Assembly: GCF_001418565.1 (NCBI RefSeq)
Contig: NZ_LIQQ01000027.1
Span: 422 to 64,421, forward strand
Direction: 5' to 3'
Length of the DNA stretch: 64,000 nt
Source of the DNA: Streptomyces graminilatus
GTDB lineage: Bacteria > Actinomycetota > Actinomycetes > Streptomycetales > Streptomycetaceae
In this document: positions 8,871-57,942 of the stretch, one piece after another
Layout: each line of letters starts with the position of its first letter
Position numbering within the stretch: the first letter of the stretch is position 1
Program-made: the position numbers and the translations under genes
Notes under the pieces: model-generated
The model's input: the letters and a program-made list of their open reading frames with translations, nothing else
What the model was told of the DNA's origin: nothing
Database searches by the model: none

Positions 8871-8893
8871 ATGCTTTCCTCTCCTCAATTCTG

Positions 8894-17506: not shown

Positions 17507-18013
17507 GAAGGGCGGTCCTCATCACGCTGGAGGTCATCGCATGGCGCAGCGATCAAGTCTGAAGATACTTCCAACTCGTCACCGTTTCAAGTGTCTTGCT
17601 GGGCCTGACCAGGGGTGATCGGGTTGCAGAAGTTGAGTGTGTGACGTCCGTCTCAAGCCGGCCTCCGAGTGTCAGCAGTTCCACCCTTTGTCACCGACGT
17701 CTTTAGTGAGAGAGCGAGTGGAGCGAGCGAATGAACAGCTCAGAGATATTTTTCGAAAGACTGTTCGAATCCAGTCAAGGCGTCATGAGGGTTTGCCTCT
17801 TTGGGGGCAAACCGTAATCGCAACCCCTTTCAAAAGGTGGGTGGCTCGTACCCGTAACCGCTTCCTCTCAAACGTGAACATCCGATGACTGAACCGTCAC
17901 CACGTCTCCTGTTGACCCCCTCGTTGAGATCCGTCTCCGCGGAGTGCGCCCAGGAGCGGCCCCGGCCGCCAGACCAGCAACCGGCCGGGGCCCAAAGCCA
18001 TTGAAGGAGGGAC
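17507..18013. promoter_or_regulatory. Late-gene control region
   Basis: Around 500 bases before the HNH gene. It contains a rightward copy of the conserved repeat (17628-17644), a GGTTTGCC/GGCAAACC hairpin near 17793-17816, and a good ribosome-binding site (GAAGGAGGG) just before 18014. Open frames here are short and lack a ribosome-binding site. Confidence 0.5.
17628..17644 (+). promoter_or_regulatory. Conserved TTGAGT repeat, site 7 (rightward)
   Basis: AGAAGTTGAGTGTGTGA matches the consensus at 14 of 17 positions and points toward the late genes, whereas all copies in the leftward operons point leftward. No -10 box stands 17 bp downstream. Confidence 0.5.
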
Positions 18014-40689: not shown

Positions 40690-40713
40690 CTGCGTTCCGG
40701 CTATGATGTAGCT

Positions 40714-40750
40714 GCACGGCCCTGGATACTTTGGCGTTCCAGGGCCGTGC
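40714..40750 (-). repeat. ACTTTGGC-loop hairpin, copy D
   Basis: A 13-bp stem (40714-40726 with 40738-40750, GCACGGCCCTGGA type) closes an 11-base loop TACTTTGGCGT. It lies 12 bases past the stop of the small leftward gene. No U-tract follows on either strand. One of four hairpins with the same loop core and different stems. Confidence 0.75.
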
Positions 40751-40762
40751 GGCCGTTCGTGA

Positions 40763-40981
40763 TCAGAACCGGGTCAGCACCCCATCGACGTACCCGAGGG
40801 GCACCACATCAGTGTGAGGCTCTCGCGTGTCAGGGTCATCAATCCGGTAGTGATGTCTGCCATGCTGGTCCTCAATCAGGACCAGGGGATCAGCTCCGCA
40901 CCGACGGCACCGGAAAAAAGCGAACTCAGCCTGACTCGCCGACGGGCTTATATCGCTCGGGCTTTTGAGAACTGCTGCCAC
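40763..40981 (-). CDS. Small protein with Cys motif at the end of the right arm
   Basis: 72 residues from the GTG at 40981, with GGGAGGAG just upstream. Contains F-F-R-C-R-R-C-G-A-D-P and then H-G-R-H-H-Y, a possible zinc site. It lies beyond the operon terminator at 41043, so it needs its own promoter. Unknown function. Confidence 0.55.
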   Translation of the reverse strand: MAAVLKSPSDISPSASQAEFAFFRCRRCGADPLVLIEDQHGRHHYRIDDPDTREPHTDVVPLGYVDGVLTRF

Positions 40982-41035
40982 AGGGCTCCTCCCAACCTTG
41001 GGTTTTACTGAGATTCTGCCACTTGTAGGCCAGAT

Positions 41036-41061
41036 AAGAAAAGCGCCCTTGCACGGGGCGC
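41036..41061 (-). terminator. Terminator of the 41-44 kb leftward unit
   Basis: GCGCCC (41043-41048) pairs with GGGCGC (41056-41061). On the leftward strand it runs into TTTTCTT. Located 32 bases past the stop of the 602-residue protein. Confidence 0.75.
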
Positions 41062-41092
41062 ACTCTTCTCTGCTGAGGCATATCGGATGGAT

Positions 41093-42901
41093 TCACTTTC
41101 CCGTCCTCCGGTACTCCTCGCAACGGCGCTTCCAGTACGCCTTGGCCTGGTCCGTGTTACCTTCCTCAGCCAGTTCGAGGAAGTTGGCTGGCACCTCGTA
41201 GCCGCCAGGCGGCATCGTCTCCTCAACTGCCGCGGGCTCCTCCTTCCGCATGGGGGTCTGTGCGGGGGACCAGTGGATCTGAGAGACCAGGCTGCACGTC
41301 ATAACCTTCTGATCCGTCTTCACGTCGATCAGGTCGTACCGGCCCTCTCCGATGTAGATGACATTGACCTTCACCCACTGACCCGGCTGAGGGTTTCTCT
41401 TGCCTGCCTTGCCACCGAACCAGACGACCAGGCCATGTGAGTGGTACCGCCCTGGCAGGCCCATGACGTTCCGGAACTGGCCGGACTTCCACTCGTCCGG
41501 TCCTTCGTGCTCCTGGTCCTGGTGCTCGTCCTCGTCCAACGGGTCACCGCTGTACATCTCAGCGAGCTGCTTGAGCTGCTGCCCTATACCGCCCTTCAGC
41601 GGCGCCTCTGCGTCCGGCCAGATTTGCCGAGCCGCCTTCACGTACCTCTCTCCGCCGAGGACGGTGACCGTCGCGTTCTTCAGGCCCAGCTCCTCGACCT
41701 GTCGCTTCACGAATCCGAGACGGACACTGTCCTTGTCGCCCATCGTCACGTCGTAGTTCTCGATCTCCTCGGTGAGAGGGATCAGCCCGTACTTCGCGCT
41801 GAGGACCATCGTCACGCCGTCCATGACCTCTGAGGCCATCAGGCAGGCGGTGAAGTAGTTCCCGATGTAGCGCTCGCCGGCGGGGATCTTCCCCTGCCTC
41901 TGGGACTTCTTTCCGCCGCAGGCCACCAAGACCAGGCGCTTCGTCGCCTCCTTGGGGGCGTCATCCTCTTCGCCCGTCCCGAGGTAGCCGTTGATGAGTC
42001 GCCCGGTCTGCTCGTACGCCCCGGTGTGGGTGCCGATGAACTTCAGAGCCGCCCGCTTCACGGCACTGCTGTCGTAGTCCTTGAACCGGTCCATCTTCCC
42101 CAGGAGCCACCCCAGGGTTTCGGTGCGGACGCGGCCCGAGGCTCCAGTCTTCGCCCACGTCATGGCCAAGAGGTCTTCCTTCACGGCCTCCGGGATGCTC
42201 GTGTCCTTCGCGAAGTCCGAGACGTACGGACTGACCAGGCTGCCTGACAGGCTTGCGGGAAGTTTGATCTCGTGCCGGGTCTCGCGCGGGTCATCCGGCG
42301 CGTAGTCCATCTCATGACGGGCCAAGATGCTCTTCCCCGCCATCCACTCATTGTTGTTGTCGTTCTTGATCACCCACTTTCGGGCCTGCCTGATCAGCAC
42401 GCCGAGGGCGCTGTTCGTCAGGGGGACCGTGGTCGACCTCTGGGAGTTACCGAGTCCGAGCGCCTTGCAGGCGTCCATCAGATCCCGCTCGGCCTGGGTA
42501 TCCGCGTCCATAGTCCGTGTCGCCCACTTACGGGCCGTCGCCGGAAGGTGGACCTCGATCTTGTTCGTCATGCTGATCTCCACTTCGGTTTCATGACTGT
42601 CGTTGAGGATGTTGAGTACGGGCACGTCAATGCGCCCCGTGCATACGTCGCAGTCGCATTCGTGATGCATGCAGAAGCAGCCGAGTTCATCGCACAGCCG
42701 GTCAGGGCCCCTGCCATTTCCCTGGTCGTACCAAGTGGGGTAGACCACGTGCTGACGGCTATACGGATGTCCGTGAGGGAGGGGCCGGCCCTCACAGTCG
42801 GCCCGTGCTCTCTCTGCGTTCTCGGGCGCAAGAAAGGCCGCCCTGCACGTGGTGCACTGAAGGCGGCCTTCTGGTCGTTTCCTAAGGGTGTGTCTACTCA
42901 A
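41093..42901 (-). CDS. Large DUF6884-type protein with Cys-rich N-terminus
   Basis: 602 residues in one frame. Residues 1-95 carry Cys pairs (C-T-T-C; then C-F-C-M-H-H-E-C-D-C-D-V-C), a probable multi-zinc module. Residues about 110-320 are helical. Residues about 325-425 contain L-V-L-V-A-C-G-G-K-K-S, a middle Y-I-G-N-Y-F-T-A-C, and L-S-A-K-Y-G-L-I-P, the DUF6884/YaaA-like pattern found in proteins linked to nucleic-acid base metabolism. The last part is a small beta domain (G-Q-W-V-K-V-N-V-I-Y). An internal ATG at residue 110 could make a shorter form. No experimental function known to me; first candidate of this arm for host takeover or DNA modification. Confidence 0.7.
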   Translation of the reverse strand: MSRHTLRKRPEGRLQCTTCRAAFLAPENAERARADCEGRPLPHGHPYSRQHVVYPTWYDQGNGRGPDRLCDELGCFCMHHECDCDVCTGRIDVPVLNILNDSHETEVEISMTNKIEVHLPATARKWATRTMDADTQAERDLMDACKALGLGNSQRSTTVPLTNSALGVLIRQARKWVIKNDNNNEWMAGKSILARHEMDYAPDDPRETRHEIKLPASLSGSLVSPYVSDFAKDTSIPEAVKEDLLAMTWAKTGASGRVRTETLGWLLGKMDRFKDYDSSAVKRAALKFIGTHTGAYEQTGRLINGYLGTGEEDDAPKEATKRLVLVACGGKKSQRQGKIPAGERYIGNYFTACLMASEVMDGVTMVLSAKYGLIPLTEEIENYDVTMGDKDSVRLGFVKRQVEELGLKNATVTVLGGERYVKAARQIWPDAEAPLKGGIGQQLKQLAEMYSGDPLDEDEHQDQEHEGPDEWKSGQFRNVMGLPGRYHSHGLVVWFGGKAGKRNPQPGQWVKVNVIYIGEGRYDLIDVKTDQKVMTCSLVSQIHWSPAQTPMRKEEPAAVEETMPPGGYEVPANFLELAEEGNTDQAKAYWKRRCEEYRRTGK

Positions 42902-43172
42902 CCCACACTTCCGTCTCGCTGACGATGCGAATGCGGCTCGCGTCGCCCCCAGCGGCTCGAAGGGCCACCTTCATCACCACTGGGTGAACGCGGACCACAG
43001 AGACCGGCCCGTTCCGAGCACGGGCACGGCTCTGAGTGACAGCCCTACGCCTCTTGATCAGTTTGCGGCGCGTATCCCGCTCTTCGCGGTCCAGCCTTAG
43101 CCACTCGTCTGCCGCACGTTGAGCGGGCGTCGACGACATATCGCTAAGGCTGGTGGGCTGTTCCTGGTGCAT
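42894..43172 (-). CDS. Small basic protein
   Basis: 92 residues, strongly basic centre (R-K-L-I-K-R-R-R-A-V) then a beta-rich end (V-V-R-V-H-P-V-V-M-K-V). Overlaps the next gene by 8 bases. A second start at residue 12 is possible. May bind nucleic acid; no family recognised. Confidence 0.55.
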   Translation of the reverse strand: MHQEQPTSLSDMSSTPAQRAADEWLRLDREERDTRRKLIKRRRAVTQSRARARNGPVSVVRVHPVVMKVALRAAGGDASRIRIVSETEVWVE

Positions 43173-43183
43173 AGTGCGGCTCT

Positions 43184-44560
43184 CTACAGAAGGGCCAAGA
43201 TCGGATTAGTGGGTGCAGCAGGTGGGGCAACAGCCGCGACCTCACGGACCTTACGAGGCTTCTTTGGGGGCTTTGAATCCTGTCCGACGACCACCCTAAG
43301 CACAGGTTTGCCAGAATGTGGAGCCTTGGATTCCGTTTCAGTGGATTCCGGAACCTCCGTTTCGACTCCCTCGGTCAGCCGATACATGATCGGCTTTGCC
43401 CCTCGTCCGGGCTGTTGCAGCTTGTAGACCTCGACGTCATCCATGTCCGCAACAGCCTCCTTCAGGGCCGCCGCGTTGGCACGGGTGCCCAGGGCACGGA
43501 GAAGCGTGGTGCTGGACGCCTCGCCTCCGTAGCGAGTGAGGATTTCCCGAACCAGCTCTTCCGTGGTCTTCATCGGCCTCGCGCCCTGGTCGGCCGCATC
43601 GCGAACCAGCTGCTCGACAGATGCCATGGACTTCTGAACGAAGGCCCAGGCCGCCTCAACGGCACGCCTGCTGATCTTCGTCTTCTTCTCGGAGGCCGCG
43701 AGCACCGCGGCGATTCGCTGAACCTGCTCAGCGGCCCGTTCCATGTAGCTCGACAGCAGCTCGGGCATCTCTGCCATGCGCTGTTCGATGTAGGCCCTCA
43801 GCTCGTCGAACCGGCGGCCGGCAGGCTTGTCGAAGCTCATAACCCGCTCTTCCTCGGCCGCCCACTTAAAGGCCGCCGCCAGCGGCGCCACATCCGGGAA
43901 CGTCGGCTTGTGGTCGTACGGCAACATCTTCGAGCCCTGCACCAGGACCGGAAGGAGACGGTTGTACGAGCCGCCCAGGGCCTCGCTCGAAGACACGTAC
44001 TTGGCCCACTCACCAGGCGTGATGTGGCTGTGAAAGCCCAGCAGTGGCCGTTGGACCGACTGTAGGCCCTCCTTCTTCGTGCGATTCGAAATCGGCTTGC
44101 CGTCCCAAGCCGTACGGAAGAGGGTGCTGAACTTGCTGCACCGCTTCTGTGTCTTGAGGACGCTCGCCCACTCCTCTTCCACCAGCATGGCCCGGCCGTC
44201 GATCCCCAGCTCGGAGCCCATCGTTTCCAGCTCCAGCTTGGCCAGCATGTCCACCAGCGACGGGCCAGACGAGACGCCGTCACGTATACGAGCCTCCATG
44301 TACCCGCCGATGACCGGACGGAGGATTCCCCTCGCGGTATTGAGTGCGTAGCCCTTCCGGCCGATGGCCGATCGGCCCGCAAGGACGGTCCAGACCACGA
44401 CGGGCCGGCCGTTGTCCAGCCGGACCTTCCGACTGATCGCGGACGAGTACAGGGAAAGGCACGCTGCCCACACCCCGATCGGATCGGCCTCACTCGACGG
44501 CATGACCGCCTCAACGGCCTCGCCCAGAGGGCCGTACTTCATCGCTTCGAACGTGGTCAC
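43184..44560 (-). CDS. DUF3987-like primase-helicase-type protein
   Basis: 458 residues. The first 300 match DUF3987 layout: a P-loop-like V-L-A-G-R-S-A-I-G-R-K-G near residue 62 (a degenerate Walker A, with Arg in place of the usual Gly and Lys), V-E-E-E-W near 127, L-L-G-F-H-S-H-I-T, then G-G-S-Y-N-R-L-L and an all-helical tail. The last 100 residues have a winged-helix-like stretch (S-S-T-T-L-L-R-A-L-G) and a Pro/Lys-rich end. DUF3987 proteins occur in mobile elements next to replication genes. Confidence 0.65.
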   Translation of the reverse strand: MTTFEAMKYGPLGEAVEAVMPSSEADPIGVWAACLSLYSSAISRKVRLDNGRPVVVWTVLAGRSAIGRKGYALNTARGILRPVIGGYMEARIRDGVSSGPSLVDMLAKLELETMGSELGIDGRAMLVEEEWASVLKTQKRCSKFSTLFRTAWDGKPISNRTKKEGLQSVQRPLLGFHSHITPGEWAKYVSSSEALGGSYNRLLPVLVQGSKMLPYDHKPTFPDVAPLAAAFKWAAEEERVMSFDKPAGRRFDELRAYIEQRMAEMPELLSSYMERAAEQVQRIAAVLAASEKKTKISRRAVEAAWAFVQKSMASVEQLVRDAADQGARPMKTTEELVREILTRYGGEASSTTLLRALGTRANAAALKEAVADMDDVEVYKLQQPGRGAKPIMYRLTEGVETEVPESTETESKAPHSGKPVLRVVVGQDSKPPKKPRKVREVAAVAPPAAPTNPILALL

Positions 44561-44576
44561 TTCCTGCCTCCTCTTC

Positions 44577-44765
44577 TTACGCGGTCTGCGCGGCGAGCTG
44601 ACTGCTGCCGAGCGCTTCCGCGAACCAGGTCCGGAACTTCCCGCCGTGCTCCTCGCACACGTCGTACTCGTCGCCGAAGATTTCGAGCTTCCCGACCGCT
44701 TCGCGCTCCTCGCCCTTCTTTTCGCACGGGTCGCACGTCACAGACTTGATAACCTTGGTCGCCAT
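44577..44765 (-). CDS. Small zinc-binding protein
   Basis: 62 residues with C-D-P-C near the start and C-E-E-H in the second half, a C2CH zinc site. Good ribosome-binding site (AAAGGAG). The ACTTTGGC-loop hairpin A is 34 bases upstream, in its leader or promoter. First gene of the unit with the DUF3987-like protein. Confidence 0.65.
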   Translation of the reverse strand: MATKVIKSVTCDPCEKKGEEREAVGKLEIFGDEYDVCEEHGGKFRTWFAEALGSSQLAAQTA

Positions 44766-44798
44766 TCCAATAGGCTCCTTTGCGAATAGATCCGAACA

Positions 44799-44817
44799 CT
44801 CGTACTTTGGCTACGAG
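44799..44817 (-). repeat. ACTTTGGC-loop hairpin, copy A
   Basis: CTCGTA (44799-44804) pairs with TACGAG (44812-44817) around CTTTGGC. It lies between the terminator at 44826-44860 and the small zinc-protein gene. Confidence 0.75.
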
Positions 44818-44825
44818 CACCCATG

Positions 44826-44860
44826 ACGAAGGGCCGGGAATTCTATTCCCGGCCCTTCGT
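44826..44860 (-). terminator. Strong hairpin ending the 45-47 kb leftward unit
   Basis: A perfect 16-bp stem (44826-44841 with 44845-44860), core GGGCCGGGAAT, 3-base loop, 18 bases after the preceding gene. Confidence 0.8.
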
Positions 44861-44878
44861 TAAAGATGTTCGACCAAG

Positions 44879-45169
44879 TCAGCCCGCAGTACGCGCTGCC
44901 GCTATCGCTGCTGCGGACTCCTCTCCCTCACGGCGCACTTTCTCAACCCATTCCGGGTGAAGGAACGTGTTGTCATCTGGCCATCGGGGCTCTACTTCGT
45001 CCACCCAGGCAGACCAGACCTCCGCTGTCTGCTCAGCGTCAGACGGATGGTCGATTTCCCAGAGCAGGCAACGAAGGACGTGGGCTCTGTCTCCCTCAGG
45101 CTCGAACCCTGACCATGTTTCGTACTCCTTCGCCACGAGTGCACGAATACGCTTTGCCTCGTCACTCAT
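44879..45169 (-). CDS. Hypothetical phage protein
   Basis: 96 residues from the ATG at 45169, which overlaps the upstream stop. Mostly helical, with E-T-W-S-G-F-E-P-E-G and R-C-L-L-W-E-I-D in the middle. No family recognised; last gene of its unit. Confidence 0.6.
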   Translation of the reverse strand: MSDEAKRIRALVAKEYETWSGFEPEGDRAHVLRCLLWEIDHPSDAEQTAEVWSAWVDEVEPRWPDDNTFLHPEWVEKVRREGEESAAAIAAARTAG

Positions 45170-45390
45170 GACACACCTGCCAGTACTCGGCGGCCGGCCT
45201 GCCACTCCTCGACCACGTGAGCCACCAGAGCGCGGACAACCACGTCCGGGTCTGCGTAGGCGCCCGCTACGTGTCCGCAGTCTTGGAACACGCTCCGCAG
45301 GGCCACAAAGCTCTCGTTGAAGTCCGGCTTCGCAGCGGCAGCTTTGGCTCTGTCGCCCACCGAGGCGGAGTCAAGGAGGAAGTCCTTCAT
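45166..45390 (-). CDS. Hypothetical phage protein
   Basis: 74 residues from the ATG at 45390, helical, with R-S-V-F-Q-D-C-G-H-V-A-G-A-Y in the centre. Overlaps the downstream gene by four bases. No family recognised. Confidence 0.6.
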   Translation of the reverse strand: MKDFLLDSASVGDRAKAAAAKPDFNESFVALRSVFQDCGHVAGAYADPDVVVRALVAHVVEEWQAGRRVLAGVS

Positions 45391-45395
45391 CGCGC

Positions 45396-45737
45396 TCACT
45401 CGGCCGCCCCGAACTTCGCACGCTGCTTGTTGGACATGTCCACGGGCGCCCACCACTTGAAGTAGGCGAAGCCCGCAAGGCTCCGGACGAACCGCGCCGG
45501 GAGAGGGACGATGCTGACCAGGCCCCGGTACACGAGCATGTCCAGCTCGGAGTCATCCGGGGTGTAGCCGATCGGCCCCTTCCCGGTGGCGTAGTAGTCG
45601 TGGCCTTCGAGGACTTGCCCCTCTGCGGTGATCAGGGTCATGGCGTACTTCTCACTGCCAGGCGTCCACTCGACGACCACTCCGAGGTTGGTGAGGCCGT
45701 CGGGGACCAGGCCCACGGCCACATGTGTGTGCTTCAC
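45396..45737 (-). CDS. Hypothetical phage protein
   Basis: 113 residues, beta-rich N-terminal half (V-A-V-G-L-V-P-D-G; V-V-V-E-W-T-P-G-S-E) and a W-W-A-P-V-D-M tail. Overlaps the Lsr2-like gene by four bases (ATGA). No family recognised. Confidence 0.6.
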   Translation of the reverse strand: MKHTHVAVGLVPDGLTNLGVVVEWTPGSEKYAMTLITAEGQVLEGHDYYATGKGPIGYTPDDSELDMLVYRGLVSIVPLPARFVRSLAGFAYFKWWAPVDMSNKQRAKFGAAE

Positions 45738-46072
45738 GCATGTCCTTTCGCTTCGTTGTATGCCTCGATCACGCGCCGCGGAATGCGGCCCCGCGTGCCC
45801 ACGAAATAGCCGTTCTCACGGCCCCATTCGCGCATGTCCTTCATGAGCCAGATCTGATGCTCAGCCCGTTTACGATCTTCGGCGGCTTCTGCCCACATCC
45901 GCGTTTCCTTCTCGCGCTGCTCCGCCTCACGCTTCAAGCGCGCCAGATGGCGGGGGTAGTACTCGCGGAAGTAGCGGATCTCTGGATCGGTGGGCGACCC
46001 TCCGTCGTCGGCGCTCCGGAGCCTCTCGTGGACCATGAATTCCCGGACAAGGTCCGGGTCCGGCTCGGTCAC
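45734..46072 (-). CDS. Protein with C-terminal Lsr2-type DNA-binding domain
   Basis: 112 residues from the GTG at 46072 (GTGA overlap). Residues 1-70 are helical and charged (R-Y-F-R-E-Y-Y-P-R-H-L; R-E-A-E-Q-R-E-K-E-T), unlike Lsr2. Residues about 75-110 are the Lsr2 DNA-binding domain: M-R-E-W-G-R-E-N-G-Y-F-V-G-T-R-G-R-I-P, with the R-G-R hook that enters the minor groove of AT-rich DNA, then V-I-E-A-Y-N-E-A. The Lsr2 oligomerisation domain is replaced, so it could antagonise or redirect host Lsr2. Confidence 0.75.
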   Translation of the reverse strand: MTEPDPDLVREFMVHERLRSADDGGSPTDPEIRYFREYYPRHLARLKREAEQREKETRMWAEAAEDRKRAEHQIWLMKDMREWGRENGYFVGTRGRIPRRVIEAYNEAKGHA

Positions 46073-46251
46073 CTGACGATCAGAGGACGAGTGGTCACGT
46101 TTTCGTCCTCCTCCCACCGTTCGGCGTGCTCGTCACAGTGCGGCCAGGAGACGAACCGCTTGTCTCCGTATCGCTCGATGTCGACCCATCGAGTCGCGGG
46201 CCGGCCGCAGTTGGTCATGCAATTTCCGCTGTAGTCCTTGGGGTACGGCAC
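46069..46251 (-). CDS. Small Cys/His protein
   Basis: 60 residues with C-M-T-N-C-G-R-P-A-T and C-D-E-H-A-E-R-W, a possible C3H zinc site. Coupled to the Lsr2-like gene. No family recognised. Confidence 0.6.
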   Translation of the reverse strand: MPYPKDYSGNCMTNCGRPATRWVDIERYGDKRFVSWPHCDEHAERWEEDENVTTRPLIVR

Positions 46252-46254
46252 AGG

Positions 46255-46503
46255 TCACCAGCCTCGATCAATTCCGTGGTCTTGCCGAAGGTGATTGCCC
46301 TCCCAAAGGGTGGCCTGCCTGTTCATCCACGGGTGTTCCTTCTCCATGAGTGAGGAGGAAAGCGCCTTGAACACCTCACCGTGCTCGGAGCACGAGACCA
46401 CGACGTTGCCGTACGCCACCCAGTGGAGTCGGCCCCCATCGGAGGTCCAGCGCCTCGGCTTGGGGAACTCCACGAAAGTGAGCGTCATTTCCGGATGTTC
46501 CAT
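46255..46503 (-). CDS. Hypothetical phage protein
   Basis: 82 residues with a W-V-A-Y-G-N-V-V-V-S-C-S-E-H beta segment, then a helical part. Overlaps the upstream stop by one base. No family recognised. Confidence 0.55.
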   Translation of the reverse strand: MEHPEMTLTFVEFPKPRRWTSDGGRLHWVAYGNVVVSCSEHGEVFKALSSSLMEKEHPWMNRQATLWEGNHLRQDHGIDRGW

Positions 46504-46844
46504 CAGGCACGCACCTCCAACACGGCGTTGCTCGGGGAGATACAGCGGCCCATCCGGTAATCGCTGACCGTGATAAATCCGCCCTCCATACGGTCCATGC
46601 GGATGTGCGGGCCGTCCTCCTCAGACCACTCGGACGCGTCCTCCAGACGCTCAGCCGTCGTCGTCTCCGCCCACACCGTAAATTCGGCCCCGTACAACTC
46701 ACTCCACTGGTTCATGATGTTGAACAGGTGCTCGAACTTCTCCACGAGAGCAACCGCCCTCGCGTCCTTAGGGGCGGGCATCTCCGCATATCTCGGATTG
46801 TTGGAGTCGGTACGCTCGCCAAGGGCCATAATCCAGCGCGCCAT
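46503..46844 (-). CDS. Hypothetical phage protein
   Basis: 113 residues from the ATG at 46844 (GAAAGGAAAG upstream). A helix A-V-A-L-V-E-K-F-E-H-L is followed by a beta-rich half with F-I-T-V-S-D-Y-R-M-G. No family recognised. Confidence 0.6.
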   Translation of the reverse strand: MARWIMALGERTDSNNPRYAEMPAPKDARAVALVEKFEHLFNIMNQWSELYGAEFTVWAETTTAERLEDASEWSEEDGPHIRMDRMEGGFITVSDYRMGRCISPSNAVLEVRA

Positions 46845-46855
46845 TTTCTTTCCTT

Positions 46856-47140
46856 TCAGTTCTGGGCGAAGGGCACGTGGCCCTGAAGAACAGCGACGGC
46901 GTGCAGGTAAGAAGCCGATTCCCCGAACCGCTTGACCGCTTCCGACTCGGCCTCGTCCGAGGCGTTCGAGCCGCTGGTGGCCCACACGTGGAAGAGCTGG
47001 GGCTCATCCGTCATGTGAAATTGCTCCCACCCTTCAATGAATATTTCCGGGTCCCAGTCGCGGACGACAGTGAACGGCTTCAGGTTTCCCCGCTGACTGA
47101 TTCGTCCCATGACCGCCGGAATCACGCTTCTCCAGCTCAA
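46856..47140 (-). CDS. Hypothetical phage protein
   Basis: 94 residues, W- and F-rich (D-W-D-P-E-I-F-I-E-G-W-E-Q-F). ATG at 47140 overlaps the stop of the preceding gene. No family recognised. Confidence 0.55.
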   Translation of the reverse strand: MSWRSVIPAVMGRISQRGNLKPFTVVRDWDPEIFIEGWEQFHMTDEPQLFHVWATSGSNASDEAESEAVKRFGESASYLHAVAVLQGHVPFAQN

Positions 47141-47418
47141 TTTGCACTCTCCATTTCCAGAAACTTGCGCGCCTCTTCGGCGAAGGCGGTCCAGGTGTCT
47201 TGGGCATCGAACGCGAAGTTGGTGTCCCTCTCGTCGTAGACACCCATTTCCTCGTCAATACAGGGCTGGTCCCCGTCGACGGGGGCATACGAGGGGATCT
47301 CTCGAAAGGACTCCTCTCGGTCCTTCTCCCACTGGCCGTGTGCCTTGACGAGCTTTTCCAGCAACTCCCGTTGCACAGCACTCTGGAACTTCATTCGCTT
47401 GGTGTACTTGCGAGACAT
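47137..47418 (-). CDS. Hypothetical phage protein
   Basis: 93 residues from the ATG at 47418 (GAGAGGAGAG upstream), basic N-terminus (R-K-Y-T-K-R-M-K-F) then a helical, acidic body. First gene after the palindrome at 47452. No family recognised. Confidence 0.6.
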   Translation of the reverse strand: MSRKYTKRMKFQSAVQRELLEKLVKAHGQWEKDREESFREIPSYAPVDGDQPCIDEEMGVYDERDTNFAFDAQDTWTAFAEEARKFLEMESAN

Positions 47419-47451
47419 CTGCTCTCCTCTCAATCGGTTACCCGTGGCGAA

Positions 47452-47471
47452 CGGCCGGGAATTCCCGGCCG
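47452..47471 (-). terminator. 20-bp perfect palindrome, probable terminator
   Basis: CGGCCGGGAATTCCCGGCCG, centred on GAATTC, 20 bases past the stop of the upstream leftward gene. Shares CCGGGAAT/ATTCCCGG with the hairpin at 44826-44860. Confidence 0.6.
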
Positions 47472-47490
47472 CCACCAAACAGGAACCGCG

Positions 47491-47859
47491 TCAGACGGAA
47501 GCGGCGGCGTTGTCCTGGTCGTCCTCGGGTTCGCTGTCGTCGCCGGCGACCTGGTAGCGCTCCCAGAATTCAGCCGCATCGTGACGGCCGGCCGCGTGCA
47601 TCAATCCCGTGAGCGGTGCCAACTCCAGCTCGGACAGATGCGGTGCAACACCGTGCGCCAGGTTGGGGTCATCGAACTTGTCCACCAGCTCCATGGCGGC
47701 GATCAGCAGAACCTCACGCTTCGGGTCCCTGGCTCCCATCTGGAGACGAAGTTTCTCCAGGTCCTCGTGGAGCTGGACGTTCGACTGCACGAGCATGGTC
47801 AGAGCGGTGTCCCGCATGTCGCGGTGGATAAGCCAGTGGGTGATGAACGGGATACGCAT
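47491..47859 (-). CDS. Hypothetical phage protein
   Basis: 122 residues, helical, with a coiled-coil-like middle (N-V-Q-L-H-E-D-L-E-K-L-R-L-Q-M) and an acidic tail. It has terminator-like hairpins on both sides and so is probably its own unit. No family recognised. Confidence 0.6.
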   Translation of the reverse strand: MRIPFITHWLIHRDMRDTALTMLVQSNVQLHEDLEKLRLQMGARDPKREVLLIAAMELVDKFDDPNLAHGVAPHLSELELAPLTGLMHAAGRHDAAEFWERYQVAGDDSEPEDDQDNAAASV

Positions 47860-47878
47860 GCTGAGTCCTTTCGGGCAT

Positions 47879-47903
47879 GAAAAAAGACCAGGGGGATTCC
47901 TGG
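47879..47903 (-). terminator. Intrinsic terminator
   Basis: CCAGG/CCTGG stem with a run of TTTTTT on the leftward strand, 28 bases past the stop of the next upstream gene. Confidence 0.7.
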
Positions 47904-47930
47904 CCTCGGTTGGGGGTTGGGGAGGTGCGG

Positions 47931-48404
47931 CTACTCCGGCGAGGGCTCACGCTCTTTGAGCGCCTCAAACACCGCGAGGGCGGTCATGCCGATGAGTCCC
48001 GCCTCATGGCTCTTGTCGGTCATCCATCCGCCACCGGCCATGAACTCGGAGAATGCGCGATTGCTGTTCCAACTGCCGTGCTTCCGCTGGACGTCGAACG
48101 CGACCCCGGCGGCTCGGTCCATGACGTTGCTCGCGAACTCGATACGGTCCAGGCCGCTCCACGTCGCCGTGCCAGCGTGGTCCGTCACGTACTGCTGGGC
48201 CGCCTTACGCGCAGCCTCCACGTCGAAGAGGACGTAGGCCCCGCAGACGGAGCAACTCACGTCCTTCAACTCCGACGAGTAGATGGGCTCAGCCATGATG
48301 ACCGGGAGTCCGCCGTTACACGGCGTTCGGTCTCCCGAGAACGAGACGTGCGATTCGCCCGGTGTCTTCCGGCTCCAGCTCACCTGAAAATCGACCTTGC
48401 TCAC
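47931..48404 (-). CDS. Hypothetical protein with one Cys pair
   Basis: 157 residues from the GTG at 48404 (GTGA overlap). A short beta part is followed by C-S-V-C-G-A-Y-V-L-F-D and a long helical half (A-A-R-K-A-A-Q-Q-Y-V). No family recognised. Confidence 0.6.
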   Translation of the reverse strand: MSKVDFQVSWSRKTPGESHVSFSGDRTPCNGGLPVIMAEPIYSSELKDVSCSVCGAYVLFDVEAARKAAQQYVTDHAGTATWSGLDRIEFASNVMDRAAGVAFDVQRKHGSWNSNRAFSEFMAGGGWMTDKSHEAGLIGMTALAVFEALKEREPSPE

Positions 48405-48589
48405 TTGCTCTCCTCCAGGACTTCCAGGATCGAGGTGTCCTCGATCTCCCACTGACGGGGGTTACATGTCTTGCAGTAGCGGACGTGGGTGTTGCACATG
48501 CGGACCGTTCCGGCCGAGGTCGTGAACAGCGTCAGGAGCTGGGGACAGTTGGCCGCCTTGAGCGCCATTCCGTTGTGCCAGGCGTTCAT
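48401..48589 (-). CDS. Small Cys-rich protein
   Basis: 62 residues from the ATG at 48589 (TGATG overlap). C-N-T-H-V-R-Y-C-K-T-C suggests a small zinc site. No family recognised. Confidence 0.55.
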   Translation of the reverse strand: MNAWHNGMALKAANCPQLLTLFTTSAGTVRMCNTHVRYCKTCNPRQWEIEDTSILEVLEESK

Positions 48590-48834
48590 CACCACCCCCT
48601 CTCGCTCTTGAACTCGTCCAGGTCCTGGCCGTAGTTCTCGGTGACGACGTCTTCCAAGTCGGCCTGCATGTCGGATGTGAGGACGGTTATGGTCGCGTTC
48701 ACCAAGAGCGACAGCAGGTCTTCCATCTCCTGGTCGCACTCGATGTCCTGGATGACCAGGTCCATGGCCGCATTCGCGGCCTCGCTCACCCGATCCTCGG
48801 TGTAGGTCTTCTCGTTGCTCACGAGTTCGCCCAT
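48589..48834 (-). CDS. Hypothetical acidic phage protein
   Basis: 81 residues, acidic and helical (V-I-Q-D-I-E-C-D-Q-E-M-E-D-L-L). Overlaps its upstream neighbour by 16 bases. No family recognised. Confidence 0.55.
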   Translation of the reverse strand: MGELVSNEKTYTEDRVSEAANAAMDLVIQDIECDQEMEDLLSLLVNATITVLTSDMQADLEDVVTENYGQDLDEFKSERGW

Positions 48835-48992
48835 GCCTTTGCGTCGTCCGAGTTGATCCAGCCCTTCCGTCCGGCCTGGTCCTTGATCTCGATAAGGTCG
48901 TGAGCGGTGTACCGCACTACGGTCACCCGCTCCCGCCCGAGAGCGCTGCTGTCGTAGACCGCCTGGCCTCGCTTGAACTTCTTCTCGATCAT
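48819..48992 (-). CDS. Small SH3-like protein
   Basis: 57 residues from the ATG at 48992. K-R-G-Q-A-V-Y-D-S, V-T-V-V-R-Y and G-W-I-N fit a small beta-barrel. No family recognised. Confidence 0.55.
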   Translation of the reverse strand: MIEKKFKRGQAVYDSSALGRERVTVVRYTAHDLIEIKDQAGRKGWINSDDAKAWANS

Positions 48993-49363
48993 TTCTCCCC
49001 TTCCTTGATGCGGGTGGTGCTCACGCTGTAATCCGGCTGGCGACGCTCCACGTCGATGGGTGCGGGGCCGTCGAGGAAACCGCGCAGCAGATCGGCGGTG
49101 TTGCCGTGGTAGCCGATTCCCTCGTACGAGTAGGCGGCATTGCCCATGTAGATGTTGGCTTCGGGGTAGTACGGGCCGCACTCAGCCGCCCAAGTACCGT
49201 TCGCCCGGATCACCACACGGTCGTACTCGTGCGAGATTTCCAGGCCCTTGCGGTACTGCTCTTCCGCACGTCCGGGAACCCTGCCGTCGAACTCCGTAGC
49301 GAAGTCCTCAGGTTTCAGAAAAGCCTCAGGCGGAAGAGCAGTGAGTTCGGAGTAGGGGCGCAT
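48989..49363 (-). CDS. Hypothetical phage protein
   Basis: 124 residues, Tyr-rich (Y-Y-P-E-A-N-I-Y-M-G-N-A-A-Y-S-Y). ATG after GAGGAGG. No family recognised. Confidence 0.6.
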   Translation of the reverse strand: MRPYSELTALPPEAFLKPEDFATEFDGRVPGRAEEQYRKGLEISHEYDRVVIRANGTWAAECGPYYPEANIYMGNAAYSYEGIGYHGNTADLLRGFLDGPAPIDVERRQPDYSVSTTRIKEGEK

Positions 49364-49372
49364 AAATCCTCC

Positions 49373-49720
49373 TCAGAGGGGACGAACGTCGACTACGCCG
49401 AACTTCTTGGCGGCATAGGCTTCCATCACGGTGAACATGAATCGCAACTCCGTGTCCCCGAGGTCGATTACGTCGATCTCCTCCCACGTGGACGGTGTAC
49501 CACCCTGCGAGTTGTCCCAGTTGTTGAACCAGTAGGTTCCCTCGTCGATCATCCGAGAGACGCGGATGATCGAACGCTCATGCTCTCGCCACTGGAGTTG
49601 GTACTGCTCGCCACCTTCCTGGCTCTCCCAGACGTGAAGCGAGTTGTAGCCGTAATTCCCGCCGCGGATGGCGAGCGGGTAGGCGTAGGGCTTGCTTTCC
49701 GGCTTGTTCTTACGAGGCAT
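49373..49720 (-). CDS. Hypothetical phage protein
   Basis: 115 residues from the ATG at 49720 (AAAGGGG upstream), aromatic-rich (W-F-N-N-W-D-N-S). One-base overlap with the preceding stop. No family recognised. Confidence 0.6.
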   Translation of the reverse strand: MPRKNKPESKPYAYPLAIRGGNYGYNSLHVWESQEGGEQYQLQWREHERSIIRVSRMIDEGTYWFNNWDNSQGGTPSTWEEIDVIDLGDTELRFMFTVMEAYAAKKFGVVDVRPL

Positions 49721-49956
49721 CACGTTGCCCCTTTCACTGGGTAGGTGTTCTGGATGATCAGCTCCCATGCCTCATTCAGCTCGGACGTGGTGTCGTACTT
49801 GCGCAGCCAGACGTTCCCCTGAGAGTCCTCGGTGAGGATCACGGCTTCGAGCTGGTAGAGCCCGAACCAGGCCGGCCCCTCAACGCTGTCGCCTACCTCC
49901 TGCTCGGGCTGGAGGTAATAAAGTTCTTCGGCCTCGGGCGTTTCGAACTTGGACAT
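49720..49956 (-). CDS. Hypothetical phage protein
   Basis: 78 residues from the ATG at 49956 (TGATG overlap), starting with an acidic helix and continuing beta-rich. No family recognised. Confidence 0.55.
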   Translation of the reverse strand: MSKFETPEAEELYYLQPEQEVGDSVEGPAWFGLYQLEAVILTEDSQGNVWLRKYDTTSELNEAWELIIQNTYPVKGAT

Positions 49957-50120
49957 CAGCGCCCCTTCGCGGCGGGCTGGCAGGTACGGGTGAAGGTCGC
50001 GAGCTGGGCATCGGTGATCAGCCCCGTTTCTCGCCACTCGGCGAGGAAATCGGTTTGCCCCTTGATCACAGGGACAGCGGAATTTCCTCGGTTTCCCTTT
50101 TCGAGTTCGGCCTTACGCAT
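49956..50120 (-). CDS. Small hypothetical protein
   Basis: 54 residues from the ATG at 50120 to the TGA shared with the next ATG. A-E-W-R-E-T-G-L-I-T-D-A-Q-L looks like a short helical hairpin. It fills an otherwise empty gap in a fully packed operon. No family recognised. Confidence 0.55.
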   Translation of the reverse strand: MRKAELEKGNRGNSAVPVIKGQTDFLAEWRETGLITDAQLATFTRTCQPAAKGR

Positions 50121-50397
50121 GAAACCGCCTTTCTCTCAGAGGCCAGCCGCGCTCTATCAACTCCGCGGGGAATCCAAGGTGTCCGGCCCGCTTGCGGTTG
50201 ACTAGCCGAATGGCTTCCCAGTCCGTTGGCACCTTCGTCACGAGGCGCAAGATCTCGTCCTTGAAGACGGCCATCTCTGCGCACTCACCGTGATTCGGTC
50301 CGTCGAAGCTGCACACAATGCGCCAATTCGGATTGACGATGAACTGGCAGCCACACGGCCAGGAATTCCACCCGAGCCGCAGTTCTTTGGGCTCCAT
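50113..50397 (-). CDS. Hypothetical phage protein
   Basis: 94 residues from the ATG at 50397, one base past the upstream stop. N-terminal W-P-C-G-C-Q-F and H-G-E-C-A-E-M suggest a metal site; the second half is helical and basic. No family recognised. Confidence 0.55.
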   Translation of the reverse strand: MEPKELRLGWNSWPCGCQFIVNPNWRIVCSFDGPNHGECAEMAVFKDEILRLVTKVPTDWEAIRLVNRKRAGHLGFPAELIERGWPLRERRFHA

Positions 50398-50398
50398 C

Positions 50399-50698
50399 TC
50401 AAGCCGTCCATTCCGCACGGCAGGTCACGCACTCAAAGCCGCCAGCGACCAGACGCTTTGCGCAGGACAGGCACGGGCCGACATAGGCAAGCGCCTTGCG
50501 CTCGTACTCGGCCTTGCTGATGGCGTCTATGTGCGCCGCCCAAATCGGCTTCGTGGCCTGGCACTCCCAGCACATGTATCCGCCGCAGGTCTTGCGCGTC
50601 TCGCGCTTGCAGAGCCAACAGGGCTCGTCACGTCTCTGCATCAGGTAGGCCGCCAACTCGTCTTCTTCGCGAGTCGACGGCAGGAAGAAAACAGGCAT
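50399..50698 (-). CDS. Double zinc-ribbon protein
   Basis: 99 residues with four Cys pairs: C-W-L-C, C-W-E-C (after T-C-G-G-Y-M), C-L-S-C and C-V-T-C, enough for two zinc ribbons. It is the first gene behind repeat site 4 and hairpin B, so its expression is likely controlled there. No family recognised. Confidence 0.65.
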   Translation of the reverse strand: MPVFFLPSTREEDELAAYLMQRRDEPCWLCKRETRKTCGGYMCWECQATKPIWAAHIDAISKAEYERKALAYVGPCLSCAKRLVAGGFECVTCRAEWTA

Positions 50699-50719
50699 GG
50701 ATGTCCTCTCAACTCGACA

Positions 50720-50751
50720 GGCTCGCAGGTACTTTGGCCTACCTACGAGCC
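50720..50751 (-). repeat. ACTTTGGC-loop hairpin, copy B
   Basis: GGCTCG-C-AGGTA (50720-50731) pairs with TACCT-A-CGAGCC (50740-50751), 11 pairs with one mismatch, loop CTTTGGCC. It directly adjoins repeat site 4 and ends 21 bases before the start of the zinc-ribbon gene. Confidence 0.8.
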
Positions 50752-50753
50752 GA

Positions 50754-50770
50754 TCACCGACTCAACTTTT
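50754..50770 (-). promoter_or_regulatory. Conserved TTGAGT repeat, site 4
   Basis: Exact AAAAGTTGAGTCGGTGA on the leftward strand. It overlaps the last two bases of the next gene upstream. A -10-like TAGGCC lies 18 bp downstream, inside hairpin B, but is weak. Confidence 0.65.
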
Positions 50771-51005
50771 ACGGCATGAAGAAGCGTGCCGGGTCTGCCG
50801 GACCGAACAGGCCCGACCCGTCGAGCTGCCATTCGAACCATGACATCTGGTCACGCTCGAACAGGACGTCGCTGATCATTCGAGCAGCGATCTTGTGCCA
50901 CTCCACATCACCCTGCGACATGGCCGTGTAGTCCTCGCAGAGCTGAAGAGTGGTCCTCTTGCGCAAGTGCTCAACAAGGAGTTGCGCGTTCACGTGCTGT
51001 GCCAT
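50769..51005 (-). CDS. Hypothetical phage protein
   Basis: 78 residues (Q-L-L-V-E-H-L-R-K-R-T; W-F-E-W-Q-L-D-G-S-G). ATG after GAAAGG. No family recognised. Confidence 0.55.
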   Translation of the reverse strand: MAQHVNAQLLVEHLRKRTTLQLCEDYTAMSQGDVEWHKIAARMISDVLFERDQMSWFEWQLDGSGLFGPADPARFFMP

Positions 51006-51090
51006 ATCGACCTTTCACACACACCGGTATCGCTCGGACGCTTACCGGATTCCACCGCGCCCCGAAGGGCGCGATAGGACCCGCCAAGTG

Positions 51091-51315
51091 TCAGACCGGG
51101 TTGAGGACACACGTGGCAGGGTTCTCGATCTGCTGCTGATACGTGCTGAGATAGACGGCCGGCGGGGAGGGTGCGACCCGCGAACGGACCTCGAAGCCTC
51201 TCGCCATCCAGTCCTGTGCGAGCGTCCCGGCCTCGTCGCCGCGGACAGTGTCAACCTCGCGCCAGACCGAAAACTCTTCGTCGAGCACGGACACGCGAAT
51301 CCAGATGTTGAGCAT
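51091..51315 (-). CDS. Small hypothetical protein
   Basis: 74 residues from the ATG at 51315 (GGAGG upstream): I-W-I-R-V-S-V-L-D-E-E-F-S-V-W, then helical and beta parts, one Cys near the end. No family recognised. Confidence 0.6.
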   Translation of the reverse strand: MLNIWIRVSVLDEEFSVWREVDTVRGDEAGTLAQDWMARGFEVRSRVAPSPPAVYLSTYQQQIENPATCVLNPV

Positions 51316-51341
51316 GGGGAGTCCTCCGTAGCGGTAGCGAG

Positions 51342-51641
51342 TCAGCGGGTCTCGACGAGCCAGGAACATGCGGGCGTGAACCCCTGGTCGCAGTCGTCTT
51401 GCTTGCTGTCCCTGAAGCCGTCGTTGAAGGTGTCCACGTAGGCCACATTTCCGGCCTGGTCGACGACGAAGGACATCCCGCGCCCGTTGCCCTGCTTGCC
51501 CGCGTCCCAGTAACAGTTCACCGACTCCTCGGACTTGCACGGCTGGAGCTGGGGAGCTGTGGCGTCCCCGTAGATCGCACCGCCCGTGAACGCGGCAGCG
51601 GCCAGCACCAGAGCCGACAGGGTCATTCCACGCTTGCGCAT
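51342..51641 (-). CDS. Secreted or membrane-anchored small protein
   Basis: 99 residues from the ATG at 51641. R-K-R then T-L-S-A-L-V-L-A-A-A-A-F-T-G-G is a clear signal peptide or anchor. The mature part has four Cys (P-C-K; N-C-Y-W; D-D-C-D; A-C-S-W), suggesting two disulphides outside the cytoplasm. It could act at the cell surface, for instance in superinfection exclusion; this is speculative. Confidence 0.6.
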   Translation of the reverse strand: MRKRGMTLSALVLAAAAFTGGAIYGDATAPQLQPCKSEESVNCYWDAGKQGNGRGMSFVVDQAGNVAYVDTFNDGFRDSKQDDCDQGFTPACSWLVETR

Positions 51642-51666
51642 GTTGGGTCTCACTTTCCAAAACTCC

Positions 51667-51683
51667 TCACCGACTCAACTTTT
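51667..51683 (-). promoter_or_regulatory. Conserved TTGAGT repeat, site 5
   Basis: Exact AAAAGTTGAGTCGGTGA on the leftward strand, 25 bases before the secreted protein's start. The -10 at 17 bp would be AAGTGA, which is poor. Confidence 0.6.
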
Positions 51684-51692
51684 AGGACAGGG

Positions 51693-51854
51693 CTATGCAC
51701 AGGGCTTGACCACGATGCGGGCCCGCAGCCCGCGAGTGATCGGACGCGCAGCCATCGTGCCGCGCTTCTTGGACTTGCGCTTATTGGGCAGTCGCTCACC
51801 CGGTCGACCCCACACGTCCGCCCCGTGAGCGCGCGTGGTATTGATCGAAGCCAT
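51693..51854 (-). CDS. Small very basic protein
   Basis: 53 residues from the ATG at 51854 with GGAGGGG upstream. Centre K-R-K-S-K-K-R-G and R-G-L-R-A-R-I-V-V-K-P; probably nucleic-acid-binding. First gene of the leftward block after the long non-coding region. Confidence 0.6.
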   Translation of the reverse strand: MASINTTRAHGADVWGRPGERLPNKRKSKKRGTMAARPITRGLRARIVVKPCA

Positions 51855-52183
51855 CGAATCCCCTCCGGACATGAACCAAGCGCACTGAGCGAATTCTCAG
51901 TGCGCATGGAGCCACTTCCGACTTGGGGCCGCCCGTCCAGCTTTCCGAGCGGCATCACGTACGGCGCATCATCGTTGTGCGCCTGATTGGGTTACCCGTC
52001 CCTGCTCGCGCTCCCGCTACGTACCTCCGACGTAGCCTCACTGCGCATTGGTCATTGCGTCACGCCCCACAAGGGCGGCTCAAAGGTTCCTTAGGTAACC
52101 CGCTGGTTTTCCGGCCACGGGCAGAGTTGCTAGTCCTGCCCGTGCCTTCGTGTGGTGTGTGTCTTCCCCTACGCTTTCCGCTT

Positions 52184-52208
52184 AGCGTGCCACTTTGGCC
52201 AGCACGCT
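52184..52208 (-). repeat. ACTTTGGC-loop hairpin, copy C
   Basis: AGCGTGC (52184-52190) pairs with GCACGCT (52202-52208) around CACTTTGGCCA. Confidence 0.75.
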
Positions 52209-52640: not shown

Positions 52641-53537
52641 CAATTAATTAATTCAGACATCAAGGCATGGATCGCCCAGGATCAATTCGGGCAATGCAGG
52701 CTAGATAGGGGCGAATGTCTGTGATGGGCGTCACATATAGGGGTGCTCACAAATACCCGCAACATGGACACGTCTAGACCAATTCTAGATAGTGGTCTAG
52801 CCCAATATGGAGTGGTGGTTTAGACCAGTGCGTTATGAGCCTGTTACTGAAAACGGCTGTTTGTAATCATCTTGCGCACCCAAGCGTTATTAATTCGTGT
52901 CCGAATGCAGAGCGACCGCGCGCATTGGATTCCCCACAATGCGGGTCAATTCAGACACTTACCCAATCTAACAATTCGCTATTCGCATTAGCAGGTCTAA
53001 ACCATTTACTATTTGCGATTCACGAATGCGTGGGTGCGAATTAGTTTGCTATTCACTGATGCATGCTTTGCATTACACGCTGAATATCTGAGTGCCAGTC
53101 AGGGATGCCCCCGCATGACTGTATTCATGAATTAATTCCCCCTCGAATTCATTCATTCACTCGGCCGTTTAGGCTGAATGGGGGGTAATCCATATATACA
53201 TTCAGAAAGGACCCACCGGGGGTGCTGTCCTTCCAGCGTGTACGGGTATTAATTTTTCGAAGCTCTGTGCGTCCCGTAGACGGCCGCGTAGCGAACCCTA
53301 CCACACCAGGCCCCAACTGACCCCTCCCAAGCCCGTACAGCAGCTCTCAGAGGCTGGGAGGTCGGTCAACCGGCTCTGTTGCCCCCTCACTCGCCCGTCT
53401 TGAATGAATGAATTAGGTCAACAGGCGTGAGCTGAGCCTCAGTTGAGGGCTCGGGTGTCCAGACATGGCCAGATTGACACCGACATCTTTTTTGGTGGGG
53501 GTTATATGCCCTCTATGGTGCCTAACCGAGTTGCCTA
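52641..53537. other. AT-rich non-coding region with iteron-like repeats
   Basis: About 900 bases far more AT-rich than the rest of the window, with TTAATTAATT, GAATTCATTCATTCAC and GAATGAATGAATTA runs and no supportable gene. Related sequences of TGGTYTARACC type recur: GTCTAGACC (52772-52780), TGGTCTAG (52793-52800), TGGTTTAGACCA (52816-52827) and, inverted, AGGTCTAAACCA (52993-53004). Candidate roles are a replication origin, operator cluster or Lsr2 nucleation site next to the phage lsr2 gene. Confidence 0.5.
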
Positions 53538-57843: not shown

Positions 57844-57892
57844 ATGAATTACCCTCGGCCTGGCCGAGGGGACCATCCGAGTCCCGGAGGTC

Positions 57893-57929
57893 AGAGAACC
57901 CCCCCACTGACCCTGTGGGGGGGTTCTCT
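57893..57929. terminator. Bidirectional terminator between convergent genes
   Basis: AGAGAACCCCCCCAC (57893-57907) pairs with its complement at 57915-57929 around TGACCCT. It separates the rightward cassette from the leftward gene at 57943. Confidence 0.85.
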
Positions 57930-57942
57930 GCTTTCCGGCCTG

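Follow-up and report, generated by a model that had tools for sequence, protein, structure and literature searches.

Why should a phage carry several hairpins that agree in their loops and share nothing in their stems? The question is raised by a stretch of 64,000 nucleotides (nt) from Streptomyces graminilatus, referred to throughout as the window, which is part of a prophage-like stretch related to the Streptomyces phages Ponzi, Success and Ibantik, and in which a first-pass annotation had reported four hairpins with a common loop. The answer that we favour, in a judgement that falls just short of even, is that one short antisense hairpin RNA (the key) is complementary to the loops of several hairpins in early mRNAs (the locks). 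Comparison with related phages makes a shared loop, a common orientation, covariation of the stems, concerted replacement of the loops and RNA-type wobbles in the lock stems apparent at the level of sequence.

All four hairpins were recovered with their common loop when the window was scanned again (Table 1). By exact-word scan, ACTTTGGC occurs four times in the 64 kb, each time on the + strand and inside a hairpin loop, and GCCAAAGT is absent from the + strand; in the leftward direction the loop reads GCCAAAG(T). The frequency of ACTTTGGC is by itself ordinary (1.61 copies expected, and four reached in 7 of 100 shuffles), and the unusual feature is that four of four copies are hairpin loops. 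In a mismatch-tolerant scan CTTTGGC was the leading 7-mer with four hairpins, the runner-up having three and six shuffles at most three; a perfect-stem scan counted ACCCTGT four times and CTTTGGC three times, the ACCCTGT entries being overlapping registers of two loci. Folded as leftward-strand RNA, hairpins 1 to 4 have energies of -34.8, -8.3, -24.2 and -13.0 kcal/mol and z-scores of -6.9, -2.8, -5.8 and -1.8, so that hairpin 4 is unexceptional when taken singly. Their stems are unrelated, with only the loop in common. At the hairpins, Rfam 15 families gave no match above the gathering score, the window's only match being a tRNA at 61392.

Is such sharing a peculiarity of this phage? Relatives were collected through the DUF3987 gene as an anchor, which yielded 58 loci, one of them (L009) from the window's own phage. 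At least four hairpins with a common 6-mer loop word were present at 12 of the 58, against a maximum of three in 232 dinucleotide shuffles; these 12 include L009 and near-duplicates such as L037/L038 and L030/L047. Another 12 loci had exactly three sharing hairpins; several of them (e.g., L016, L041 and L066) represent plain tetraloop or coding words and were left out of the support. A deeper set of 23 phages comprised longer stretches of 19 records together with the window, Ponzi, Success and Ibantik; 22 of the 23 were picked because of sharing, and Ibantik shows none. The loops include GCCAAAG in the window, TCCTAAG in G001, GTCGAGA in Ponzi, AAGGACA in Success, GAGTAAG in G003, GTCGATG in G004, AGGCGAG in G005, GTAGCAG in G006, ATGGTGC in G007, TTGATGT in G008 and TGAGTAG in G009; all in all, 22 phages have 21 distinct loop words, AGGGGTA being common to G010 and G015. 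Hairpins with their own phage's loop number 100, with two to nine per phage. Fifteen of these lie well within a mechanically called early-strand open reading frame (ORF) of at least 150 amino acids (aa), and some of these matches may have arisen by chance, for example the one at Ponzi 9874 within the DUF3987 gene.

Loop sharing exceeded what permutation produces. At least three strong hairpins (stem score of at least 13) with a common 7-mer were found in 17 of the 23 phages, whereas permuting the loops among those hairpins gave a mean of 0.73 and a maximum of 4 phages in 1000 permutations; at a stem score of at least 11, 19 of 23 compare with a mean of 4.08 and a maximum of 10. The window has only two hairpins at either cut-off and is thus outside both the 17 and the 19. 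This 7-mer test supersedes a looser permutation of 2547 hairpins with 6-mers, in which 16 phages had at least four sharing hairpins against a mean of 9.8 and a maximum of 14. In the mismatch-tolerant scan, the arm filter of which merges near-identical stems, Ponzi did not exceed its shuffles. On the opposite strand, no hairpin with a score of at least 9 contained an exact loop word in any of 15 phages, which implies a common orientation. By loose patterns and without a random control, an ORF stop lies at most 90 nt upstream of 89 of the 100 hairpins (median 14), and a start with a ribosome-site-like sequence at most 150 nt from 96 of them (median 35.5).

How do the loops come to differ between phages? 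At orthologous sites the stem is retained and the loop is exchanged for another phage-private word, at several sites together. Site C can be aligned across eight phages with gaps at the very end only; the stem GGCCCGGACA...TGTCCGGGCC carries paired changes, and the 7-nt loop differs in each of the eight. There, 99.0% of cells are paired and four pairs have changed on both sides, against a maximum of one in slid controls. Two of the eight rows (L026 and L031) have a site C loop that is not repeated elsewhere. Nine sequences of site D show the same pattern of a kept stem with a changed loop, those of L028 and L031 being without a shared loop. The ortholog of window hairpin 3 (L011, 3567-3597) has TCCTAAG in its loop, and so has the G001 ortholog of hairpin 4, which keeps the same TACGCT. 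The earlier proposal of selection for structure plus loop identity is borne out, with stems that covary and loops that are replaced together within a genome. It had been added that a loop not conserved at orthologous positions would speak against the idea: taken literally the loop is indeed not conserved, yet as a refutation this fails, since several sites of one phage change their loop together, and the lack of conservation then reads as support.

Which strand is active? An RNA stem tolerates G·U and not A·C, and a strand that acts as RNA should therefore display its mismatches as G·T. With both mismatches penalised equally, the lock stems contain 74 G·T and 9 A·C on the early leftward strand (p = 8e-14), compared with 356 and 264 (ratio 1.35) in a control of 590 other strong hairpins from the same genomes. 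Most of the hairpins thus appear to act as RNA of the early leftward strand. In the window, the U·G stem pair of hairpin 3 is valid only in the leftward RNA, in which the loop of hairpin 4 is likewise closed by wobbles.

A minority of hairpins looks different. Of the 100 hairpins, 12 are preceded at 3-11 nt by the promoter-like pattern TANNNT when read on the antisense side and none when read on the sense side, compared with 1.4% at random positions (binomial 1.9e-8, with the kinship of orthologous sites ignored). These strict matches fall in 10 of the 22 phages: at site D in G001, Ponzi, G003, G004, G005 and G018, at site E in Success and G015, ahead of an Lsr2-like gene in G002, at site C in G004, and at hairpin 4 in the window and in its G001 ortholog. 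With a spacing of 4-10 nt, the pattern precedes 9 of 83 strong main-loop hairpins and 13 of 958 others (p = 1.8e-5). At site D, TANNNT is retained while the flanks differ among relatives. A curated set of 11 candidate keys, fixed ahead of the wobble count, was composed of the site D and site E matches together with window hairpin 1 and the site E orthologs of G009 (CATACT) and G013 (CACACT). Their antisense tails contain 4.18 T per 10 nt, against 2.12 in the other 89 hairpins (p = 5e-6). On the early strand, they have 0 G·T and 5 A·C (Fisher 5.1e-5), the reverse of the locks; for the strict 12 the counts are 0 and 4, against 74 and 10 for the rest (p = 4.3e-4). This suggests that the key candidates prefer the opposite strand. 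Further site D hairpins gave G·T/A·C counts of 0/0 in L032, the loop of which matches one other hairpin, 0/2 in L029, which has no lock in reach, 1/0, 1/0 and 0/0 in L028, G006 (L035) and L031, where the loop does not match, and 0/0 in L026, which has no sharing.

In the window, the key is probably hairpin 1. Its single wobble is A·C on the - strand and hence G·U on the + strand, and the + strand around it (40708-40770) folds with -39.4 kcal/mol. The gap from TATGAT to the hairpin is 6 nt for the 37-nt form, which begins at 40714, and 2 nt if the stem is extended to 40710, which is why the strict rule passes this hairpin over; an RNA initiated from this element would begin with the 37-nt hairpin itself, at about 40714. 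Hairpin 4 is a second key candidate, with TACGCT 8 nt ahead on the + strand. Site D comes after the last leftward gene in the window and in G003, where the end of a gene similar to the window's last leftward ORF precedes it; in Success, site E lies between a rightward pair of helix-turn-helix genes and a convergent membrane gene.

We envision a scenario whereby one hairpin locus is transcribed on its opposite strand to give the key, the loop of which would be exactly complementary to the 6-8 nt common to the locks, so that the key could kiss each lock in trans, their differing stems notwithstanding. The locks would lie in early leftward mRNAs, typically between a stop codon, which they follow closely, and the next start, some tens of nt away, and a key RNA of about 40 nt would meet each lock loop while the lock is being transcribed. 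Termination, translation or decay of the early messages would then depend on this binding, and the probable result would be that early genes are repressed in the lysogen or late in infection. Because only the loop would matter, a change in it would have to spread to all sites, which would give each phage a private address and keep related phages from controlling one another. In pairs of the RNA I/RNA II type, a contact of around seven base pairs between the loops can be enough, and the predicted duplex of own loop and anti-loop has a mean energy of -8.7 kcal/mol, compared with -1.6 for cross pairs, of which 4 in 460 come within 1 kcal of the own pair. Complementary loops of 6-8 nt on two RNAs are present in the sequence, as is inherent in any hairpin read both ways; the telling point would be that separate loci have one loop in common. 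Production of the key RNA, its binding, a repressive effect and private addresses as immunity groups are what we infer from these patterns. The fuller version, with a promoter-plus-hairpin RNA of about 40 nt as a master key to a private 7-nt address in up to eight mRNA hairpins, akin to an immunity type and re-addressable, we put forward more tentatively.

Several observations weigh against this proposal. At site D, TANNNT is retained also where the loop is not shared (in G006 at 12 nt, in L028 and in L031), and the promoter does not, therefore, mark loop matching. A strict key signal is lacking in 12 of the 22 phages, and the window's own strict match is at hairpin 4 rather than at hairpin 1; hairpin 1 and the G009 and G013 hairpins were added to the keys by hand. 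By eye, no conserved -35 element is seen among the candidates, nor is there a -35 match for the predicted hairpin 1 promoter, and the -10 element is a consensus match only. The wobble evidence for the keys amounts to five cells in all. On the sense side, too, the keys are rich in T (3.18 per 10 nt), and simple rightward terminators would likewise be expected to have T-rich tails and antisense wobbles. In Ponzi, G004 and G005, site D is followed by a leftward start, and its hairpins there could be locks as well. G006 (2565, with a strong T tail and one A·C) and G008 (22415, with one A·C) offer partial candidates only; in phages beyond the strict, curated and partial cases, several of the records being cut prophages, no key was identified. 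In L026, three inspected sites have three different loops and no sharing. Finally, in L024, L056 and L059 a promoter-like stretch runs into a hairpin with the loop TCAT or GCTAG and not the AGTTGGG-type loop of L024. This stretch, about 600 bp past the DUF3987 gene, has the conserved promoter-like sequence GTTGGTACAATGTGGGCACAAA (antisense) leading directly into a terminator-like hairpin, and may represent another very short RNA.

Might the loop be read by something other than an antisense RNA? A phage-encoded RNA-binding protein, an antiterminator of the N/boxB kind or a repressor, could read the early-mRNA loop, the loops following its phage-specific specificity. The properties of the locks, sharing above permutation and G·T wobbles, fit such a protein equally well, and the 54.6-kb G001 record has no match to either loop-complement 6-mer outside hairpins and hence does not encode a free-standing antisense RNA. 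The first gene on the leftward strand past hairpin 4 encodes a 53-aa basic peptide, for which a clear homolog is present in G001/L011 alone. However, among 123 families in 22 phages none stands out as tracking the loop, in a correlation test of low power with few phages of similar loops: the top partial correlation between loop and family (0.37, p = 0.013 uncorrected) belongs to a 62-aa ORF of doubtful reality, and two structural families (p = 0.003 at 0.28-0.29) probably reflect residual relatedness. Taken singly, the candidate readers fared no better. There was no clear support for the 53-aa peptide, for a small helical early protein or from best-hit analysis. A 178-aa protein beside ribonucleotide reductase, which one comparison had suggested, gained none from a closer look or from the correlation. 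A protein would also leave the complementary loop of the antisense-acting hairpins unexplained, and we consider it rather unlikely as the reader. A free-standing antisense RNA was itself rejected, the complement of the own loop occurring at no conserved place and without general enrichment in 15 phages. On the window's leftward strand it is found once, within a long ORF at 11696; counts lie above average in Ponzi (62 vs 46.9), G004 (79 vs 53.5), G008 (42 vs 28.5) and G012 (40 vs 17.9) and at or below average in the other phages. No recurrent type of complementary hairpin was found elsewhere; the hairpin at 17788-17815 is complementary over 6 nt on the + strand and has no counterpart that we could find. 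It is also a fifth hairpin of the window with one loop mismatch (CCCAAAG), and its kinship with the four is uncertain. Given the lack of a free-standing complement in G001, antisense transcription of a hairpin locus is the only RNA option found, next to a protein.

Alternatively, the hairpins might be ordinary intercistronic or bidirectional terminators, with loops homogenised within each genome by recombination and no reader at all. Many of them are terminator-like, some sites of one phage have long stems in common (sites A and B of G003), and unshared loops drift between phages too, as at site E in the group of the window and Ponzi. Yet the stems of the window are alike only in the loop and several in Success differ strongly, leaving little homology to recombine on, and the unshared loops at site E illustrate the drift to be expected where nothing reads them; we regard this explanation as quite improbable. 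Action as DNA, through single-stranded hairpins, cruciforms or a duplex site of 7-8 bp for a DNA-binding protein, would be compatible with the common orientation and the palindromic form, but the G·T excess of the lock stems marks RNA and the repeat AAAAGTTGAGTCGGTG is a better fit for a repressor's DNA site, which renders DNA action very improbable in our estimation. Base pairing with an antisense hairpin RNA offers the simple explanation that antisense-acting hairpins would carry the complement of the lock loops. Of the trans-acting partners suggested at the outset, protein or RNA, pairing RNA is somewhat favoured by the subset of opposite-strand hairpins, the partner itself being still a prediction. 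If the proposal is correct, it would describe a natural one-to-many RNA regulator with a specificity held in about 7 nt of loop and some twenty largely orthogonal natural versions. Phage immunity groups would gain a new basis, the joint change of a trans-acting RNA and many targets could be studied in a simple case, and Streptomyces genetics would have a source of orthogonal parts. Even without a key, private loops exchanged in concert over differing stems would require a trans-acting reader.

Table 1. Positions of the hairpins and neighbouring features in the window
Feature	Position	Strand	Remarks
Hairpin 1 (site D), probable key	40714..40750	+	13-bp stem; anti-loop ACUUUGGC on +, GCCAAAGT on -
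TATGAT, predicted -10 element of hairpin 1	40702..40707	+	
GTTCGTGATC, weak T-rich tail of predicted key RNA	40755..40764	+	
Hairpin 2, putative lock	44799..44817	-	7-nt loop GCCAAAG; 33 nt upstream of 62-aa ORF 44577-44765 (-)
Hairpin 3, putative lock	50720..50751	-	loop GGCCAAAG; 21 nt upstream of 99-aa ORF 50399-50698 (-)
Hairpin 4, putative lock	52184..52208	-	non-coding leader region; 7-nt loop GCCAAAG; TACGCT ahead is the window's sole strict -10-rule match
Leftward ORF, 72 aa	40763..40981	-	last before hairpin 1 and convergent late genes; stop 12 nt before hairpin
DUF3987 gene, 458 aa	43184..44560	-	PF13148, E 6.7e-20; between hairpins 1 and 2; anchor for relatives
Near-match hairpin	17788..17815		near repressor gene; loop CCCAAAGA on -, TCTTTGGG on +

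The surroundings of the hairpins hold further features. The repeat AAAAGTTGAGTCGGTG is found at 8912, 14449, 15321, 50755, 51668 and 52600 (-) and at 17628 (+); five copies are exact, one has a single mismatch and one has three, where shuffles lead one to expect 0.36. Several copies lie just upstream of leftward genes, hairpin 3 lies 3 nt past one of them, and G001 has AATAGTTGAAGTTGTG at the ortholog of window 50755. The repeat is possibly the DNA site of the product of the repressor gene at 17003-17506 (PHROG 357, E 1.2e-5). The basic peptide mentioned above is encoded at 51693-51854 (-); it is very basic, and its G001/L011 homolog matches it at 73% over 44 aa. The 178-aa protein near the ribonucleotide reductase gene (8352-8888, -) has homologs in 15 phages, with a central domain of another type in G007 and G012. 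A palindrome, CTAGACCAATTCTAGATAGTGGTCTAG, which lies at 52772-52802 among non-coding sequence, resembles a site for a dimeric protein. At 57892-57930, as at site E of G001, G004, G005, G006 and Ponzi, a terminator-like hairpin has a similar stem and a phage-specific 7-nt loop, and no second strong hairpin with exactly the same loop was found in the same genome for this group; the G005 hairpin has TAGACT ahead of it on the antisense side.

How does the proposed arrangement relate to systems already described? Cluster A stoperators are conserved asymmetric duplex sites of about 13 bp without structure, unlike the 6-8 nt in common here, which lie in hairpins with RNA-type wobbles, and the SAS/ESAS elements of cluster K phages are reportedly conserved in sequence. 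In lambdoid N/boxB, phage-specific hairpin loops of early mRNA are read by a phage factor. There, however, a phage keeps its boxB stems alike and a protein does the reading, whereas here the stems differ between sites (unrelated in the window, strongly different for several in Success) and no protein was found. Intercistronic stem-loops in the early region of a Streptomyces temperate phage are familiar from phiC31, where Ingham, Hunter and Smith are said to have described, in 1995, early-region terminators without poly-U tails. Our scans of phiC31 (L002) returned the repeated palindrome CTACTCACGTGAGTAG, palindromes of this type occurring more than ten times and mostly between annotated genes, as well as words, ACGCTGA among them, that recur in weak hairpins.

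Antisense control in phages and plasmids comes closest. In satellite phage P4, immunity is based on the CI RNA, a small RNA that pairs with early leader RNA and leads to early termination; it derives from its target leader and pairs with few sites rather than with many hairpin loops. The c4 RNA of P1 and P7 is an antisense RNA of phages, the complementary sequences of which probably lie in loops, and it is required for P1/P7 heteroimmunity (PMC12197685), a parallel to the proposed effect of private loops in keeping related phages from controlling one another; its target is the ant message, whereas here many hairpins are arrayed along an early operon. In ColE1, loops of sense and antisense RNA interact, and loop diversification can yield compatible (orthogonal) origins (PMC9458437). 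The likeness to RNA I/RNA II comprises loops of about 7 nt, a possible opposite-strand antisense RNA and element-private loops; RNA I and RNA II, in contrast, involve one locus, one target and complementary stems too, as opposed to one key with several separate locks of differing stems in phage early operons. A search of the literature, covering open-licence papers only, returned no description of such hairpins. Control by antisense contact between loops is thus already known; one key for many privately addressed locks would be, to our knowledge, new.

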